Shown here: piece after piece, positions 2,189 through 23,097 of the stretch
Position numbering within the stretch: the first letter of the stretch is position 1
Layout: each line of letters opens with the position of its first letter
Virus record (IMG/VR): IMGVR_UViG_3300027675_000025
Location: 1 to 25,039 of that record
Length of the DNA: 25,039 nucleotides
Direction: 5' to 3' (one strand)
From: a virus
Notes under the pieces: model-generated
What the model was told of the DNA's origin: nothing
Seen by the model: the letters and a program-made list of their open reading frames with translations, nothing else
Database searches by the model: none
Made by a program: the position numbers and the translations under genes

Positions 2189-2382
2189 GGCTCGGTAAAC
2201 GGCCATTCCTGGTCGTGGTACTGCTGCACCACGTGCAGGAGCTGTTGCCAGGTGTCGGGCTCGAAGACGATCGTGTTCGTGCCCGCGGTGCCATTCTCCG
2301 TCGTGAGCACCATCCGGCCCGGCTCGAACCGCACGTAGACGCCGGCGCCGAGGTACGCGGCGCGGACTTGGCCGGTCCTCAT
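2185..2382 (-). CDS. Hypothetical protein (65 aa)
   Basis: Small protein with alternating strand-forming segments (VYVRFEPGRMVLTTEN, TIVFEPDTWQQLLHVV) and an acidic C-terminus. ATGA overlaps join it to the gene before (2379-2382) and the gene after (2185-2188). No family is recognised. The pattern of a compact beta sheet followed by a helix resembles small phage regulatory or anti-host proteins, but that is only a structural impression. Confidence 0.6.
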   Translation of the reverse strand: MRTGQVRAAYLGAGVYVRFEPGRMVLTTENGTAGTNTIVFEPDTWQQLLHVVQQYHDQEWPFTEP

Positions 2383-2993
2383 GGCACGGGCTCGTCCGGG
2401 TTCCGGCGCCGCTTCGCGAGAATCAGCACCAGCGCCTTCTGCAGGCTTTCCTCGACCTGGGTTTTGATGCTGTCGATGGTGTCGAGGATGCGCTGCGTAT
2501 TCGCGTCGTCGTGCGCCATGATCTCGGCGGTGTTCTTGGCCTGTTCGGCCGCCATCGAATCGAGCGTGTCGAGAATCTGATCCAGGATGGTTTCCTCCGG
2601 CGGCGGCGTCGGGCCGGGTTCGGGCGTCGTGCCGATGTGCGCCAACTCCGCAGTCGGCTGGCGCCAGTCCGGAATCCGCGCCGGGTCCGGGCCGTGCGCG
2701 TCGCCGTTCAGCGGCAGCGCCTGCGTCCCGTCATCGGTCGCGATGTCCCAGCCGTCGCCGCCGCGGTTCTCGAGGATCCAGTCGACCGAATAGCCCTGGC
2801 TGTTGTTGCCGGACGTCTTGGCGAGCAGGCCGTGGCTCGGGTCGCGTTCGCTGTAGACGTACCAGGCAGCGCGGCGCGTCAGCAGGCCTTTGTCCTGCTC
2901 CACTTCGTCCTGCGTCGCTCGCGGTTTGATCTGGCCTTCGGCTGTCAGCTCGGCGTGCGCCCGGGTGACGCAGTCGTAGTACGGATAGCTCAA
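2379..2993 (-). CDS. Hypothetical phage protein with coiled-coil C-terminus
   Basis: Protein of 204 residues in two parts. The N-terminal part (to about residue 110) contains a GYSVDWILENRGGDGWDI-type segment, a pattern I associate with uncharacterised proteins in other phage genomes. A proline-rich linker follows (TTPEPGPTPPPEET), then a long amphipathic helix from about 133 to 190 (ILDQILDTLDSMAAEQ and similar), probably a coiled coil, ending in a basic KRRR patch. It overlaps its neighbours by 4 bp on each side. No enzymatic motif is visible. An endolysin or virion-associated role cannot be excluded, since no other lysis enzyme is evident. Confidence 0.65.
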   Translation of the reverse strand: MSYPYYDCVTRAHAELTAEGQIKPRATQDEVEQDKGLLTRRAAWYVYSERDPSHGLLAKTSGNNSQGYSVDWILENRGGDGWDIATDDGTQALPLNGDAHGPDPARIPDWRQPTAELAHIGTTPEPGPTPPPEETILDQILDTLDSMAAEQAKNTAEIMAHDDANTQRILDTIDSIKTQVEESLQKALVLILAKRRRNPDEPVP

Positions 2994-8272: not shown

Positions 8273-8315
8273 CCCAACGATGTTTGGCGAGTGTGCCGAC
8301 GGTCGACGACGTCAT
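8106..8315 (-). CDS. Possible small antisense gene overlapping the repressor 3' end
   Basis: Frame of 69 residues starting at ATG 8315 with a good AAGGAG eight or nine bases upstream. The first 40 residues (VGTLAKHRWVIAQYDALFPG, AAVDAAFRALRRRPG) look like a normal protein. The rest is proline/arginine-rich and antisense to the repressor tail over 167 bp. It could be a real convergent gene, or only a GC-rich shadow with a chance ribosome-binding site. Confidence 0.3.
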   Translation of the reverse strand: MTSSTVGTLAKHRWVIAQYDALFPGGQAAVDAAFRALRRRPGSAAWTPPPTARPAPSPVRLVGRRRSSR

Positions 8316-8335
8316 GGACGGCGGCTCCTTGTGGG

Positions 8336-8416
8336 GCGCAACGCTAAACCGAGAAAGAAACTCCAGCAATAGGATTTTTCTACATGAGGTCACAGCTACC
8401 AGAAACGCTGTAGGAG
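8336..8416 (+). promoter_or_regulatory. Leader region of the integrase operon, partial copy of the repressor leader
   Basis: GCGCAACGCTA, GAGAAAG and TTTCTACA occur in the same order here (8336, 8351, 8377) as just upstream of the repressor (7803, 7815, 7822), with extra sequence inserted between them here. AGGATTT, part of an operator-like element at 7761, also recurs at 8371. This suggests a second site controlled by the phage repressor, in front of the genes leading to the integrase. Confidence 0.45.
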
Positions 8417-8426
8417 ATTGACTGAC

Positions 8427-8603
8427 ATGGACGAACAAGAACGCGCGATTACTCGGAAGCTCTACGACCTGCAAATGGAACTGTTCGAGGCCCAGGGTGA
8501 GGAGATCGCCGCGCTGAAACGGGCCAACGATTCGCTACAGCGATCGCACGCCATCATCGGCGAGTTGCTGACACTCACGGCGAAGCTGGCGGGGTTCGCA
8601 TGA
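8427..8603 (+). CDS. Small coiled-coil protein (58 aa)
   Basis: Short protein almost entirely helical, with heptad-like spacing (LYDLQMELFEAQGEEIAAL, NDSLQRSHAIIGELLTL), so probably a coiled coil. TAGGAG lies ten bases before the ATG at 8427. An upstream in-frame TTG at 8418 is too close to that site. It overlaps the next gene by ATGA and belongs to the plus-strand operon leading to the integrase. No family is recognised. Confidence 0.65.
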   Translation: MDEQERAITRKLYDLQMELFEAQGEEIAALKRANDSLQRSHAIIGELLTLTAKLAGFA

Positions 8604-8797
8604 CTGGGCATAGCGACCTCTATATCCAGCTCCATAAGGCCGGCGTGCCTACCGCGCTCGCCGAAACGGCGGCGAATATTCAGAACCATGGCGGCGTGCC
8701 ACCAGGACTCCTCGACATCCTCGCGGCAGTGGTCGCGGCCGTCAATGCACGGTGTGAGCGGCTGGAAGCCCGATTCGACGCACGGGAGCGGTCCTAG
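8600..8797 (+). CDS. Small hypothetical protein upstream of the integrase (65 aa)
   Basis: Helical protein: an N-terminal amphipathic helix (YIQLHKAGVPTALAETAANI), a proline-glycine turn, then a hydrophobic helix running into a charged coiled coil (LDILAAVVAAVNARCERLEARF). It overlaps the preceding small coiled-coil gene by 4 bp and ends 2 bp before the integrase ATG, so the three are translationally coupled. Function is unknown. Roles in recombination control or in partnership with the preceding protein are possible. Confidence 0.65.
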   Translation: MTGHSDLYIQLHKAGVPTALAETAANIQNHGGVPPGLLDILAAVVAAVNARCERLEARFDARERS

Positions 8798-8799
8798 AG

Positions 8800-9879
8800 A
8801 TGGGCATCTATCAACGGGCGAAGGAATCCAAGTATTGGTGGCTGTACCTCGAGACCAGCCAGACCCGCGAGCGCACCGACATCCTGATCGGCGAGACCGT
8901 CGCGCAGAAGAAAGACAACAAGCGCCTCGCCAAGGAGGCCTATCAGCTGCGGATGTTCGAGTTGGCCGAGCAGAAGGTGAAGCGCCTGCGCAACGGCCCG
9001 CCGATGGTCCGGTTCGAGGCCTACGCCGACACCTACGCACGCGACGTGATCGCGCTGCATCGCGGCGCGCGGCGTGAGTTGGAGATGCTGAAACCGCTCC
9101 GCCGGTTCTTCGGCCCCGAGCTGCTGTCCAAGATCACGGCCGACCGCGTCCGGACCTACATGGCGGAGCGTGCCAAGACGGTCCAGCCGCGCACGTTCAA
9201 TCGCGAAGTCGATCTGCTGAAAGGCATGTTGCGCGATGCCGTCGGCACCTACCTCGAGGCGTCGCCGATCGCCGGGCTGAAACGGGTCAAGCCGGCGCCG
9301 GTGACCCGGCGACTGCTACAGCCCGCCGAAGAGAAGCAGCTCCTGGCGGCCTGTGAAGATGATCAGGACCGGGCAATCTTCATCCTCGGCATTGACACGA
9401 TGATCCGGCTGGGCGACCTGCTCGACCTCGAGCGCGCTGACCGGGACGGGAGTTGGCTGCGCGTCAAGCACGCCAAGTCTGGCGACAGCTACCAGACGGC
9501 CCTGTCGCCGCGTGCGCTGGCCGTTCTGGAGGCGATAGAGGCGACCGACGCGACCGACGCCCGCTACTACTTCACGAAGTTCCGCGGCGCCCTAGAGGAG
9601 CGTGATTGGTTGGGCTCGGTCCGGCAGCGGATGGAGACCCTCTGCCGGAAGGCCGGCCTACCCTACGGCAAGACATCTGGTGGCTTGACGTTTCACTGGG
9701 CGACCCGGCGGACGGGCGCGACGCGGTACCTGCTCGAGAAGAAAGACGCGCTGCCGGCGGTCCAAGCGCAAGGCGGCTGGAAACATCCAGAGATGCTGCT
9801 GCGGATTTACGCCGAGTCGCGGCGGGAGGATCAACTGCGGCTCGTCGGCGCGCTGCCGCGGCTGCGCAAAAACGCCTAA
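8800..9879 (+). CDS. int: Tyrosine-family site-specific integrase
   Basis: Tyrosine recombinase of 359 residues. The N-terminal 60 residues (MGIYQRAKESKYWWLYLET and on) form an arm-site-binding-like domain, followed by a SAM-like core-binding domain (about 70-170) and the catalytic domain. Catalytic elements visible are DTMIRLGDLLDLE (first Arg), VKHAKSG (Lys), FHWATRR (H299 and R303, one residue more than the usual HxxR spacing), GGWKHPE (Trp in place of the box II His), and the nucleophile Tyr337 in RIYAES. It ends 73 bp before the tRNA-Ala fragment, the usual arrangement of int beside attP. It should recombine attP with a host tRNA-Ala(CGC) gene, probably with help from the excisionase-like protein for excision. 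Confidence 0.95.
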   Translation: MGIYQRAKESKYWWLYLETSQTRERTDILIGETVAQKKDNKRLAKEAYQLRMFELAEQKVKRLRNGPPMVRFEAYADTYARDVIALHRGARRELEMLKPLRRFFGPELLSKITADRVRTYMAERAKTVQPRTFNREVDLLKGMLRDAVGTYLEASPIAGLKRVKPAPVTRRLLQPAEEKQLLAACEDDQDRAIFILGIDTMIRLGDLLDLERADRDGSWLRVKHAKSGDSYQTALSPRALAVLEAIEATDATDARYYFTKFRGALEERDWLGSVRQRMETLCRKAGLPYGKTSGGLTFHWATRRTGATRYLLEKKDALPAVQAQGGWKHPEMLLRIYAESRREDQLRLVGALPRLRKNA

Positions 9880-9887
9880 CTATTTTT

Positions 9888-9907
9888 CACAGAGCCAGCA
9901 CAGAGCC
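9888..9907. repeat. Tandem CACAGAGCC repeats (candidate integrase arm sites)
   Basis: CACAGAGCC occurs at 9888-9896 and 9899-9907, 11 bp apart, which puts both copies on the same face of the helix. They lie between int and the tRNA-derived core, where arm-type integrase or excisionase sites are expected. Confidence 0.5.
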
Positions 9908-9952
9908 TCAAAACCACCCCAAAACATTAAGGAAATCGCGCCTTGCGACCCG

Positions 9953-9997
9953 TTCGCAACGCGGAGGTCACGAGTTCGAGCCTCGTGCCGTCCACCA
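9953..9997 (+). other. attP: attP core: 3' half of a tRNA-Ala(CGC) gene
   Basis: The 45 bases correspond to tRNA positions 32-76 with no gap: loop TTCGCAA with anticodon CGC (9955-9957), stem CGCGG, variable loop AGGTC, T-arm ACGAG-TTCGAGC-CTCGT, acceptor GCCGTCC, discriminator A and CCA. U at position 70 and A73 fit the alanine identity G3-U70. The upstream bases (ACCCG) do not pair properly with CGCGG, so the host-like segment begins around the anticodon loop and no whole tRNA is present. Integration would restore the host tRNA 3' end. Confidence 0.85.
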
Positions 9998-10063
9998 CTA
10001 AAAAGCCTAAATAAACCAATGAATACGGGCATGAACAGCACACTTCGACAGCAACTCTACGGT

Positions 10064-10080
10064 GTTACCAATCGTTACCA
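10064..10080. repeat. Tandem GTTACCA repeats on the far side of the att core
   Basis: GTTACCA occurs at 10064-10070 and 10074-10080, 10 bp apart (one helical turn). With the repeats at 9888-9907 this gives phased repeats on both arms of attP, consistent with integrase or excisionase binding sites. Confidence 0.45.
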
Positions 10081-10140
10081 TTCGCCGGGAATCGTCGCCT
10101 TTCGGCGTCTTTCATTCCCTGAGCGTTCCCGAAGATTCTA

Positions 10141-10404
10141 ATGGGCATTTTCCGGCGACCAGAGTCGCGGTTCTGGTGGATTTACCTGGAGCCGACGAAG
10201 CGCAAGATAGCGACAAAAATTCCCATCGGCCACGGTGGCACTCGGGCGGAACGAGCCGCCTTCAAGCGCACCGCCCAAACCCTCTACTTTGCGTTGATGC
10301 TTGAGTTCGTCGATCTGGATGCGGATCGCGTACTGGCCCGGGCGATCGACCTGCTGGAGCGGCGAGTTAGCGGCGAGACGCCAGCGGTGCCGCGGTTACC
10401 GTAA
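10141..10404 (+). CDS. Stand-alone paralogue of the integrase N-terminal domain
   Basis: Protein of 87 residues whose first 50 align with the integrase start. MGIFRRPESRFWWIYLEPTK here matches MGIYQRAKESKYWWLYLETS in Int, and the next part, KIPIGHGGTRAERAAFKRTA, follows ILIGETVAQKKDNKRLAKEA. Both continue into an A/L-rich helix. The rest of the recombinase is absent, and the protein ends normally with its own stop. It lies on the opposite side of the attP core from int and in the same orientation. It could compete for arm sites and so control integration/excision direction, or it could be a decaying remnant of a duplicated integrase. No strong ribosome-binding site is visible. Confidence 0.7.
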   Translation: MGIFRRPESRFWWIYLEPTKRKIATKIPIGHGGTRAERAAFKRTAQTLYFALMLEFVDLDADRVLARAIDLLERRVSGETPAVPRLP

Positions 10405-10416
10405 TCCCCGTTATCA

Positions 10417-10438
10417 GACTTACGCCGAGATTTTCGCC
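10417..10438. repeat. 22-bp direct repeat, copy 1 (identical to 11533-11554)
   Basis: The 22 bases beginning GACTTACGCCGAG and ending TTTTCGCC are identical at 10417-10438 and 11533-11554. Similarity continues as CTCAG against TCAG, with a one-base indel. Copy 1 lies just after the PP-loop gene's stop; copy 2 encodes the last residues and stop of the 59-aa gene. They therefore mark the 3' ends of two accessory genes. Confidence 0.8.
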
Positions 10439-10439
10439 C

Positions 10440-11171
10440 TCAGTCGTGGCAATAACACTCCGTCAGTTCGCCCAGCCCAGCCAGTAAATCGCCCTGCTGG
10501 AGTAGCTCAGCGTAACTCGGCACATCGCGCCGGAACGTGCTGCCCGTGCGCGCTTCCTGCTCCAGCCACCATGCCGCCAAGTCTGGACGGTCCCGCATCA
10601 GCCGCTGCCGCTTGATCGGCCCCTTCAGGAAGCACAGATCACAGTTGCCCTCGCTCGGTCGCAGGTGCAGATCGAACGGTTGCCGCGCCCAAAACGCCAT
10701 CACGTCGGCTTCCGAGATGTTCGCCTCTGCGAGCGGGAGCGCAATGTCCCAGCGTTCCTTTTTCAGTTCAGCCGCTTCCCGCATCTTCGCCACTCGGCGC
10801 GGTTCATCGGCGCGAATGCCAACGACGTTCGTCCAGTGGTCGTAACCGTGGCCGCGCATCCAATCGCGCATCGGCCGGATCTTCAGTTCCTGCGTGCAGA
10901 AGCGAAACACCGGGTTCGGCAAGCCGCGATCCGTGATCAGTTGCGTGAATCCGCCAGGCCGCCCGACATGGTGAATCTCGATCCCCCACTGCTCGGCGCA
11001 GTCGTCCACGAACGTATACGTTTCGTCGCGTTCCTTGCCGGTATCGGCGAACAGCACATGCACGTCCGGCTGGAGCCCGGCGTCGAGGATCCGGCGCAGC
11101 ATGTAGCCGCTCGTGCGCCCACCGCTGAACGAAATCACCGCCGGGCCGTCGATGTGGAACGGGTCGGTCAT
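10440..11171 (-). CDS. PP-loop (phosphoadenosine phosphosulfate reductase-family) protein
   Basis: Protein of 243 residues with SFSGGRTSG at 14-22, the PP-loop pyrophosphate-binding motif of the adenine nucleotide alpha-hydrolase superfamily, followed by VHVLFADTGKE as in PAPS-reductase-like proteins. Cysteine-bearing segments FRFCTQELKIRP, GNCDLCFLKG and the C-terminal ECYCHD may hold a zinc ion or iron-sulfur cluster. Phages often carry such proteins; they may act in sulfur or nucleotide modification of DNA, but the reaction is unknown. I chose ATG at 11171, inside a repeated start-site sequence, rather than the longer frame to 11255. It is the last gene of the minus-strand accessory block, close to the att site. 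Confidence 0.82.
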   Translation of the reverse strand: MTDPFHIDGPAVISFSGGRTSGYMLRRILDAGLQPDVHVLFADTGKERDETYTFVDDCAEQWGIEIHHVGRPGGFTQLITDRGLPNPVFRFCTQELKIRPMRDWMRGHGYDHWTNVVGIRADEPRRVAKMREAAELKKERWDIALPLAEANISEADVMAFWARQPFDLHLRPSEGNCDLCFLKGPIKRQRLMRDRPDLAAWWLEQEARTGSTFRRDVPSYAELLQQGDLLAGLGELTECYCHD

Positions 11172-11199
11172 GGAGCCCCCGTGGTCAGCCCGCCGCCGC
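11166..11199. repeat. Gene-junction repeat, copy A
   Basis: On the minus strand it reads as the end of a protein (codons for AAAG, then TGA), the segment CCACGGGGGCTCC, and the start ATGACC of the PP-loop gene. Nearly the same sequence is found at 11430-11470 and 11710-11751. Confidence 0.8.
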
Positions 11200-11427
11200 T
11201 GGTTGAGGTCTGGGGCGCGTGGCGGGCGAGTATTGGCATTCCGTCGCCAGCACATAGCGCCCGTCGTCGAGCTTAATCATCGTGTGCCACGGCGCTTCCA
11301 TGTCGTCGCGCACTATCGTGCCCTGCACCTCTGGCCCGCCGTAATGGAACAGCACGCGCGCCCGCTGCCCGAGATGTTCGCCCTGCTTCGGAAACGTCGT
11401 CGCGGTGATCGTGGCTTCACATCCCAT
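11185..11427 (-). CDS. Small hypothetical beta-rich protein (80 aa)
   Basis: Unrecognised protein with strand-forming segments (ATITATTFPK, RARVLFHYGG, EVQGTIVRDD, HTMIKLDDGRYVLATE), reminiscent of a small beta barrel such as an SH3- or KOW-like fold. Its last residues, AAAG, are encoded by the gene-junction repeat. The ATG belonging to the repeat upstream (11434) is out of frame and opens only a five-codon peptide. The gene's own ATG at 11427 follows closely, so translation may restart from there. Confidence 0.6.
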   Translation of the reverse strand: MGCEATITATTFPKQGEHLGQRARVLFHYGGPEVQGTIVRDDMEAPWHTMIKLDDGRYVLATECQYSPATRPRPQPAAAG

Positions 11428-21204: not shown

Positions 21205-23097
21205 CTAGGCTCCGTTGCGCTTGGTGGTGCCGTTCGGCTCGAGCGCCTGCGTCCCGCCGGTCGGCGCCGGCCACGCCGTCGCCGTCAGGTACTTCACGGC
21301 GTTCGCGTTCGCCTTGTTCCAGTTGACGAACCGCTCCGCGCGCAGGCCGACCGTGTTCGTCTGCCAGAGCGACACATACACCGTGGTCGCGTCCGCCGGT
21401 GACGCTGGCGCGGAATCCATCTGCAGCGAGGCTTCCTGCGAGGCGTCGATCTCGATGCCGCCGTCCGCATAGAGAATCAGCGACGGCTGCATGGCGATCA
21501 CGTTGCCGCCGGCCGCCTGGCTGGTGATAAACGTCAAGCCCTTGTAGCTGCCGCCGTTGACGGTGACGCCGGGATATTGCGGCGAGCCGTCCAGGTTGCT
21601 ACGGAACGACAGCGCGAGCGCGTTTGCCGCCGACATGATGAACGTGACGCCGTCCACCGAGATGTTGTTGGTCGCGAAATGGCCGATCAAATTCATGATG
21701 TCGGCCATCGGGTTCGCGGTCGCGGCGGCGGTCGGCGCCCCGTTCGTGATCGAGGCCGGGTTCACACCCGCGACCGCGGCGACGGCCGGATCGATGAACT
21801 GCGAATCGAGGAACTGCGCGATCCCGGCGACCATGTCCTTGCGCACGATGTCTTCCGCGTCCGGGTCGGACAGCAGGATCAATTCCTTAGTGAGCACGAT
21901 GATCCCGGCGGCCTTGGCCACACCCAACGAGGTCGCGGAGAAGGCTAACTTTGTGACGGGTTTCGGCTTGGTTTCTCCAACCCAGCCATATGTCCCGCCA
22001 GCCGTCTGACTCGGGACTTTCACGTTGAACGGGACTTTCCGGAGGCCGGGAATCTTGCCGAGAATCGTCGCCGGCCGCAGCAGCTCGATAAAATCTTTGG
22101 CCACGGTCTGTGTCACGAGCGGCTGCGCCCAGGTCGCGTCCGTGATCGTGCCGGGCGCGACCGCGGCCTTGAGATACAGCCCGACTTCCGGCGTGTCCTT
22201 CCAGCGCTGCTCGGCGTAGGTCGCGGCGTCGCGGATCTGGCCGCTGCGCTCCATCAGCCGCGCGCAGGCGGCGCGCACAAACTGCGTCCCGATCGGCACG
22301 TTCGGCCGGACCGAGACCGAGTGCCCGGGCTGGGTCGTGGTCGTGTGGCCTGGCACGATCGCCGGGACCGGCGTCGCGGTCGCGGCCTGAATCTTCTCCA
22401 GCTCGCGCCAGCGCTGGAGATCCTTGTCGAGGCTTTTGACCTGCAGCTCGAGGCCGTCGTACTCGGTCGCCTGCTCGTCGGTGAGCGTGGCCGAATCGTC
22501 GGCCGCGGTCGACATGATGTCGCCTAATCGGGCCGCGAGCGCCGCGCGCTTGTTCTCGAGCGCCTGGACGTGATCGGCCGCCGTTTCTTTTTGCATAGTC
22601 GGTCTCTCCGGGCGGCGTGGCGCCGCGAGTGATTTCACCAGCAGGATCGAGGCGTTGGCGTTCGCCGGGATGGTGACCAGCGACAGCTCGCAGATTTCGG
22701 TATGGGTCAGGCGGCGGGTGCCGTCCTGCAGGTACGTGATGCCGTCTTTCAGAATCCGGTGGCCAATGGACACGCCGGTGATCACGCCGGCCTTGATCGA
22801 ATGCCACGCTTCGTCGACGCGGTCCTTGAAGCGGCCCGGCTCGTCGACCGTCGGCAGGGTCGCCTCGAACAGAATCCCGGCCGGCGTGGCCTTGAGGATC
22901 ACCGTGCCGATCGGTTGCTTGGTGTCGTGATGGAACAGGAGCGGCAGCGGATTGCGGAACGTGACGCCGGCCGGATCGACCATATCCCCCTGGCGATCGA
23001 GTTCCGGCGTCGAGGCAATCCCCGAAAATGTCCGGCGGGCCGGTGCAACGGCTTTGATTTCGAGCAGGCTATAGGCGCGGTCCAAGTGGACCGCCAC
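21205..23097 (-). CDS. Prohead protease fused to HK97-fold major capsid protein
   Basis: Fusion of 630 residues. Residues 1-155 are a U35-type prohead protease, with TFSGIASTPELDRQGDMVDP, FHHDT (His56/57), GVSIGHRI (Ser110) and CELSLVTIPANANAS. After a linker, residues about 175-240 form the coiled-coil delta scaffold (VQALENKRAALAARLG), and the rest is the capsid (TDATWAQPLVTQTVAKDFIE, LAFSATSLGVAKAAGIIVLT, NGGSYKGLTFITSQAAGGN). The gene starts at GTG 23097, without an obvious ribosome-binding site. Inside, ATG at 22596 (Met168) follows GGAGAG, so capsid protein could also be made separately. Capsid cleavage after the delta region is expected. Confidence 0.92.
   Translation of the reverse strand: MAVHLDRAYSLLEIKAVAPARRTFSGIASTPELDRQGDMVDPAGVTFRNPLPLLFHHDTKQPIGTVILKATPAGILFEATLPTVDEPGRFKDRVDEAWHSIKAGVITGVSIGHRILKDGITYLQDGTRRLTHTEICELSLVTIPANANASILLVKSLAAPRRPERPTMQKETAADHVQALENKRAALAARLGDIMSTAADDSATLTDEQATEYDGLELQVKSLDKDLQRWRELEKIQAATATPVPAIVPGHTTTTQPGHSVSVRPNVPIGTQFVRAACARLMERSGQIRDAATYAEQRWKDTPEVGLYLKAAVAPGTITDATWAQPLVTQTVAKDFIELLRPATILGKIPGLRKVPFNVKVPSQTAGGTYGWVGETKPKPVTKLAFSATSLGVAKAAGIIVLTKELILLSDPDAEDIVRKDMVAGIAQFLDSQFIDPAVAAVAGVNPASITNGAPTAAATANPMADIMNLIGHFATNNISVDGVTFIMSAANALALSFRSNLDGSPQYPGVTVNGGSYKGLTFITSQAAGGNVIAMQPSLILYADGGIEIDASQEASLQMDSAPASPADATTVYVSLWQTNTVGLRAERFVNWNKANANAVKYLTATAWPAPTGGTQALEPNGTTKRNGA
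22594..22609 (-). promoter_or_regulatory. Internal ribosome-binding site and start for separate capsid protein
   Basis: On the minus strand CGGAGAGACCGACT precedes ATG (22596-22594), which is codon 168 of the protease-capsid fusion. The position, between the end of the protease domain and the start of the delta coiled coil, is where a separate capsid gene would begin in other phages. Confidence 0.55.

Follow-up and report, generated by a model that had tools for sequence, protein, structure and literature searches.

A small gene at the attachment site of this phage encodes a protein that is, on the evidence of its sequence, a homologue of the N-terminal, arm-binding (AB) domain (NTD) of the integrase, set down as a gene of its own just beyond the P' arm of attP. 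The gene lies in the window, by which we mean the whole stretch of 25,039 nt that was analyzed, a 25-kb temperate phage record (Table 1). It is a patchy accessory gene of putative function, and we regard the chances as evenly balanced that its product is a functional, trans-acting binder of arm sites, an accessory of attP that would compete with the integrase or repress it.

Table 1. Features of the window discussed in the text, with the evidence for each.
Feature	Positions	Strand	Evidence or remark
Stand-alone integrase-NTD-like (arm-binding domain) protein	10141..10404	+	87 aa; BLASTP, NTD-only HMM, homologues in L003 and G011, AF2 model
Tyrosine integrase of 359 aa, with the NTD at about residues 1-63 and the catalytic domain at 173-341	8800..9879	+	Pfam PF00589 E = 8e-10; PHROG_1 integrase E = 8e-30
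attP core: 3' half of tRNA-Ala(CGC), anticodon loop to CCACCA	9951..9997	+	pattern recurs in 28 viral contigs
P'-arm arm-type pair ATTCCC-N5-GTTCCC	10114..10130	+	equivalent pairs in most relatives
P'-arm array, 10-bp period (GTTACCAATC/GTTACCATTC etc.)	about 10062..10111	+	self-match 0.60 at lag 10
Diverged P-arm repeat (CACAGAGCC, two copies)	9886..9907	+	occupies the place of the relatives' P-arm pair, about -70 from the core
HTH_17 protein, 69 aa	7278..7487	-	Pfam HTH_17 E = 5e-12

An earlier note on this DNA had described an 87-residue protein with its own start and stop that aligns with the first ~60 residues of the integrase, and this description was borne out by our analysis. The ORF begins with ATG, ends with TAA and comprises 87 codons, and in BLASTP it matched the integrase with 37% identity over 65 residues (E = 1e-10), the match falling on the first ~60 residues. 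A six-frame protein search of the 25-kb record returned only the ORF itself and the start of the integrase (E = 3.5e-8). Moreover, when 12,571 ORFs were searched with an HMM built on the NTD sequences of 24 related integrases, from which all stand-alone copies had been left out, the small ORF scored 68.3 bits (E = 3e-19) and the best unrelated ORF 13.5 bits, and shuffled versions of the small ORF (n = 5,000) reached 11.1 bits at most. A chance resemblance to the integrase NTD is ruled out by the BLASTP E value together with the score of 68 bits set against shuffles at or below 11.1.

In the AF2 model, the small protein is predicted to form three strands and a helix (E3-5, E11-16, E21-28 and H35-58), with a mean pLDDT of 79.5 and values of 86-92 for residues 1-50, and this modelled arrangement is the one reported for AB domains (PMC8138268). 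Comparison of the model with known structures gave no significant Foldseek match (best E 1.7) and placed the lambda Int NTD (1kjk; Z 4.7, 46 residues, 2.7 A) among the top VIA-align rows, where this low Z was similar to that of other rows and where several AP2 DNA-binding domains also appeared with low Z values. Searches of Pfam, PHROG and NCBIfam gave no model match for the small protein, including none to a known Xis or HTH family; comparison with PDB sequences returned nothing meaningful, and PADLOC returned nothing for the small ORFs. Nor is the product a full tyrosine integrase, as its 87 residues stop after the NTD and lack a Phage_integrase match. Among the features expected of an AB domain, it has homology to integrase NTDs and a fold predicted to comprise three strands and a helix.

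The location of the gene was likewise as the earlier note had stated, i.e. beyond a tRNA-derived core, with the gene reading the same way as that of the integrase. The core, whose parts are an anticodon loop (TTCGCAA), a T arm and an acceptor end (CCACCA), was confirmed, and across the same core in contig L119 ARAGORN called an intact tRNA-Ala(cgc). The integrase gene reads toward and into the core, and the small ORF starts 143 nt past the core end, its ATG lying 10 nt beyond the P' pair. This is the most conserved arm-type pair, found in most relatives as ATTC(C/A)C-N5-(G/A)TTC(C/A)C between +104 and +117 relative to the core. A P-arm pair of the same form (ATTCCC/ATTCAC) lies ~70 nt before the core in relatives (-67 to -71) and is kept in the sister phage L003; none was found at -67 to -71 in the window, where two copies of CACAGAGCC stand instead. 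The repeat pointed out previously at 9888-9907 does occupy the P-arm position of the relatives, but as a diverged version peculiar to the window phage. The repeat noted at 10064-10080 belongs to the 10-bp-phased array, for which the self-match at lag 10 compares with values of 0.11-0.38 at the other lags from 5 to 15. Such a phased run ahead of the P' pair is also present in most relatives checked, with GCCACCTTTC as its form there, and is possibly an array for a directionality factor or a host factor. Outside coding sequence, the P' arm is 84% identical between the window and L003. The HTH_17 protein is a candidate excisionase or directionality factor. A scan of 8300-10500 found no sigma-70-like promoter, a result that is uninformative as to the promoters of the actual host. 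Elsewhere in the window, the single ORF at 21205-23097 finds its matches among head maturation proteases as well as among major head proteins (families PHROG_80 and PHROG_617), i.e. it is a protease-capsid fusion.

Homologues of the small gene beside att, for which the earlier note had proposed a search, were indeed found in two related phages. Our survey took in all 28 viral contigs that carry this 3' half of the tRNA, together with their whole records; many of the records are fragmentary, and at least two (L117 and L125) look like one phage. An NTD-bearing integrase of this type is present in 26 records (the window, L003, G011, G027 and 22 others); a second NTD stands alone in three of them, is fused to MUG113/T5orf172 in one (L108/L137) and is absent from 22. 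The IMG/VR contig L003 has the same order of integrase, core and small ORF as the window, with a small ORF of 66 aa that again starts 143 nt past the core, and in G011, found by an NTD-profile search of the records of terminase relatives, the ORF measures 76 aa and starts 151 nt past the core. The ORF is intact in all three phages and takes the same position and direction at the P' edge. With its presence in only 3 of 26 records (four with the fusion), the small gene is evidently dispensable, which speaks against a core role. No convincing homologue was found in GenBank phages, and no relative of the integrase in the bacterial genome collection, which thus showed neither a host nor an integrated prophage. 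In seven contigs (L111, L113, L118, L119, L127, L134 and L136) the same tRNA-Ala core has its integrase gene on the P' side, pointing toward the core; as judged from gene order, the integrase has changed attP sides within one family.

The genes downstream of the small gene, all convergent with it, differ among the three phages and encode a PAPS-reductase-like protein in the window, a DNA-methylase-like protein in L003 and a 216-aa protein of unknown type in G011. (The window gene, at 10440-11255 on the minus strand, carries a PAPS-reductase domain with a Pfam E of 1e-13.) Since the gene beyond differs in each case, the small gene is tied to the attachment site and not to its other neighbour. 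These arrangements bear on the proposal that the protein is an unrelated DNA-binding regulator, either a transcription factor or a factor directed against competing phages, which would be found at attP as a boundary of exchange. Genes adjoining the P' arm do vary freely among relatives, and the G011 copy resembles NTDs from other integrases targeting this tRNA. However, the attachment site is the sole constant companion of the gene in all three phages, and we consider this proposal improbable.

The beta-sheet half of the small protein is under purifying selection, with a dN/dS of about 0.13. Between the window and L003, codons 1-31 contain 9.5 synonymous changes at 22 sites versus 5.5 non-synonymous changes at 71 sites (Fisher p = 0.0003), and third positions hold 10 of the 15 differences (p = 0.0085); the whole integrase, against which the earlier note had suggested comparing the gene, has a dN/dS of 0.30 for the same pair of phages. 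The helix half, at 40% identity and with saturated synonymous sites, points to strong divergence in the window lineage. Neither a broken frame nor relaxed selection, as expected of a pseudogene, was observed, given three intact ORFs and a dN/dS of 0.13 over codons 1-31, the second half being saturated. With the reading frames intact and purifying selection acting on codons 1-31, a working protein has more in its favour than a decaying or chance remnant, and the option of a duplication remnant, also raised in the earlier note, is disfavoured.

In the phylogenetic analysis the small copies of the window and L003 were sisters (99/97), and so were the integrases of these two phages (98/97); the small gene is thus older than their split. 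The G011 copy, in contrast, groups with the NTDs of the L113 and L119 integrases (96/86), and it is 57% identical to the NTD of the L119 integrase, which uses the same tRNA, versus 39% to that of its own integrase. A recent duplication of the start of the phage's own integrase is ruled out, as the copies in the window and in L003 lie well apart from the integrases of both phages, and that of G011 is nearer to other integrases. The description of the small gene as a copy of the integrase NTD therefore holds in the sense of a homologous domain and not in that of a recent duplicate. The grouping of the G011 copy suggests a second recruitment, and two recruitments to the same spot are likely; one common origin for all three is also compatible with the data (p-AU = 0.166).

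The main rival to a functional arm-site binder is a relic. According to this explanation the small gene would be the 5' end of an older integrase gene in the order tRNA, attL arm and int, as in intS of KplE1, whose catalytic part was lost after a P-side integrase took over, leaving a translatable piece with no selected role. The gene does start where such integrases start, just beyond the P' arm (PMC2951348), integrase genes of the group occur on both sides of the core, and both the patchy distribution and the divergent helix half fit a relic. On the other hand, the ORFs are intact in three phages with the sheet half under selection, tblastn found no decayed or frameshifted relics of the small gene in the attP regions of other phages, and the survey contained no P'-side integrase in the required orientation, those on the P' side pointing toward the core. 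A relic is thus possible but on the unlikely side.

A different fate of the NTD was found in L108, where a gene at 2252-2782 (+) (10250-10807 in L137) joins an integrase-NTD-like part to a MUG113/T5orf172 part of GIY-YIG type (Pfam E 7e-11 and 2.5e-7). The gene lies on the P side, flanked by a canonical P arm and by another P-arm pair, which adjoins the core and is contained in the 3' coding end of the gene. From its arrangement, the fusion has the look of a homing-type nuclease gene that was inserted at the attP crossover point; a fusion of this kind, occurring in a sister phage, gives a hint that other enzymes can use integrase arm domains as targeting modules. The stand-alone genes might accordingly descend from an NTD-GIY-YIG fusion that settled at attP and lost its nuclease part, the DNA-binding part being left as a remnant or domesticated. 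The L108 fusion itself, with its place between two P arms, and the derivation of CapR from T5orf172 DNA-binding domains (PMC10448857) speak for such a descent, which we nevertheless judge highly improbable, since the fusion lies on the P side and the stand-alone genes on the P' side, no other copy of the NTD is as divergent as that of the fusion (31-40% identity to the rest) and none of the three stand-alone ORFs is followed by a trace of a nuclease.

The suggestion of the earlier note, that a free arm-binding domain could compete with the integrase for arm sites and act as a directionality or dosage factor, is partly supported: the evidence is on the side of a working protein, of which binding to the arms, competition and an effect on directionality are putative properties. 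If the small protein is a functional arm-site binder, a free AB domain would act in trans on the phage's own attachment site. It would still bind the arm-type pair at the P' edge, and perhaps the 10-bp array as well, and would thereby occupy sites that the integrase must bridge, offering no catalytic domain itself, so that integration or excision would be lowered. Alternatively, it may act as a repressor of its own gene and of others transcribed from attP, attL or attR. The core being the 3' half of a tRNA, the small gene would land immediately after the host tRNA-Ala on integration, as the first phage gene downstream, with int at the far end. From this position it might be switched on in the lysogen, either to keep the prophage where it is or to shut out another element targeting that tRNA. 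For this reading as a whole count the homology, the shared position, offsets (143, 143 and 151 nt) and direction, the different neighbours, the selection on the sheet half, the 84% identity of the non-coding P' arm, the fold, the second recruitment suggested by the G011 copy and the precedents of IntS and CapR; against it count the occurrence in 3 of 26 records, the diverged helix half, the Foldseek best E of 1.7 with low VIA Z values and the lack of a promoter-like site upstream, and the two sides appear to us to be in balance. A broader proposal, that phages have repeatedly split off the AB domain into a P'-boundary gene, yielding a class of trans-acting recombination regulators that are expressed from the tRNA promoter in the lysogen and lock the prophage or exclude competitors for the same tRNA, is tentative and in our view rather doubtful.

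Arm binding sets the direction of lambda-type integration, and a free arm-binding domain encoded at the arm would, if our reading is true, be an inhibitor or tuner beyond the Xis, IHF and Fis set. A literature search of incomplete coverage found no description of a natural stand-alone arm-binding domain. The small protein resembles the AB domains of tyrosine recombinases (lambda Int 1-64, PDB 1kjk/2wcc; the Tn916 Int NTD) in its predicted three strands and helix and in its place beside arm-type repeats. Unlike these, it is encoded by a separate gene that lacks a core-binding or catalytic domain. With recombination directionality factors such as Xis and TorI it would share the character of a small, att-encoded, putative DNA-binding protein that could bias recombination. 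Factors of this kind are usually winged-helix or HTH proteins, whereas the small protein is of a different domain type and the window has a separate HTH_17 candidate. In KplE1, the intS promoter overlaps attL and the integrase represses itself through its own arm binding (PMC2951348). Modules of the intS type are similar to the window in the position and direction of the gene relative to the tRNA and the arms, the start lying just past the attL arms (PMC2951348), but contain a full integrase, while the P' gene of the window is an NTD only and the full integrase lies across the core. Finally, CapR is an example of a DNA-binding domain that derives from T5orf172 nucleases and serves as a free repressor (PMC10448857). 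Although the parent of the window's domain is an integrase and its role as a repressor is putative, it has in common with CapR and other T5orf172-derived repressors that a DNA-binding domain was freed from an enzyme, possibly to act as a repressor.
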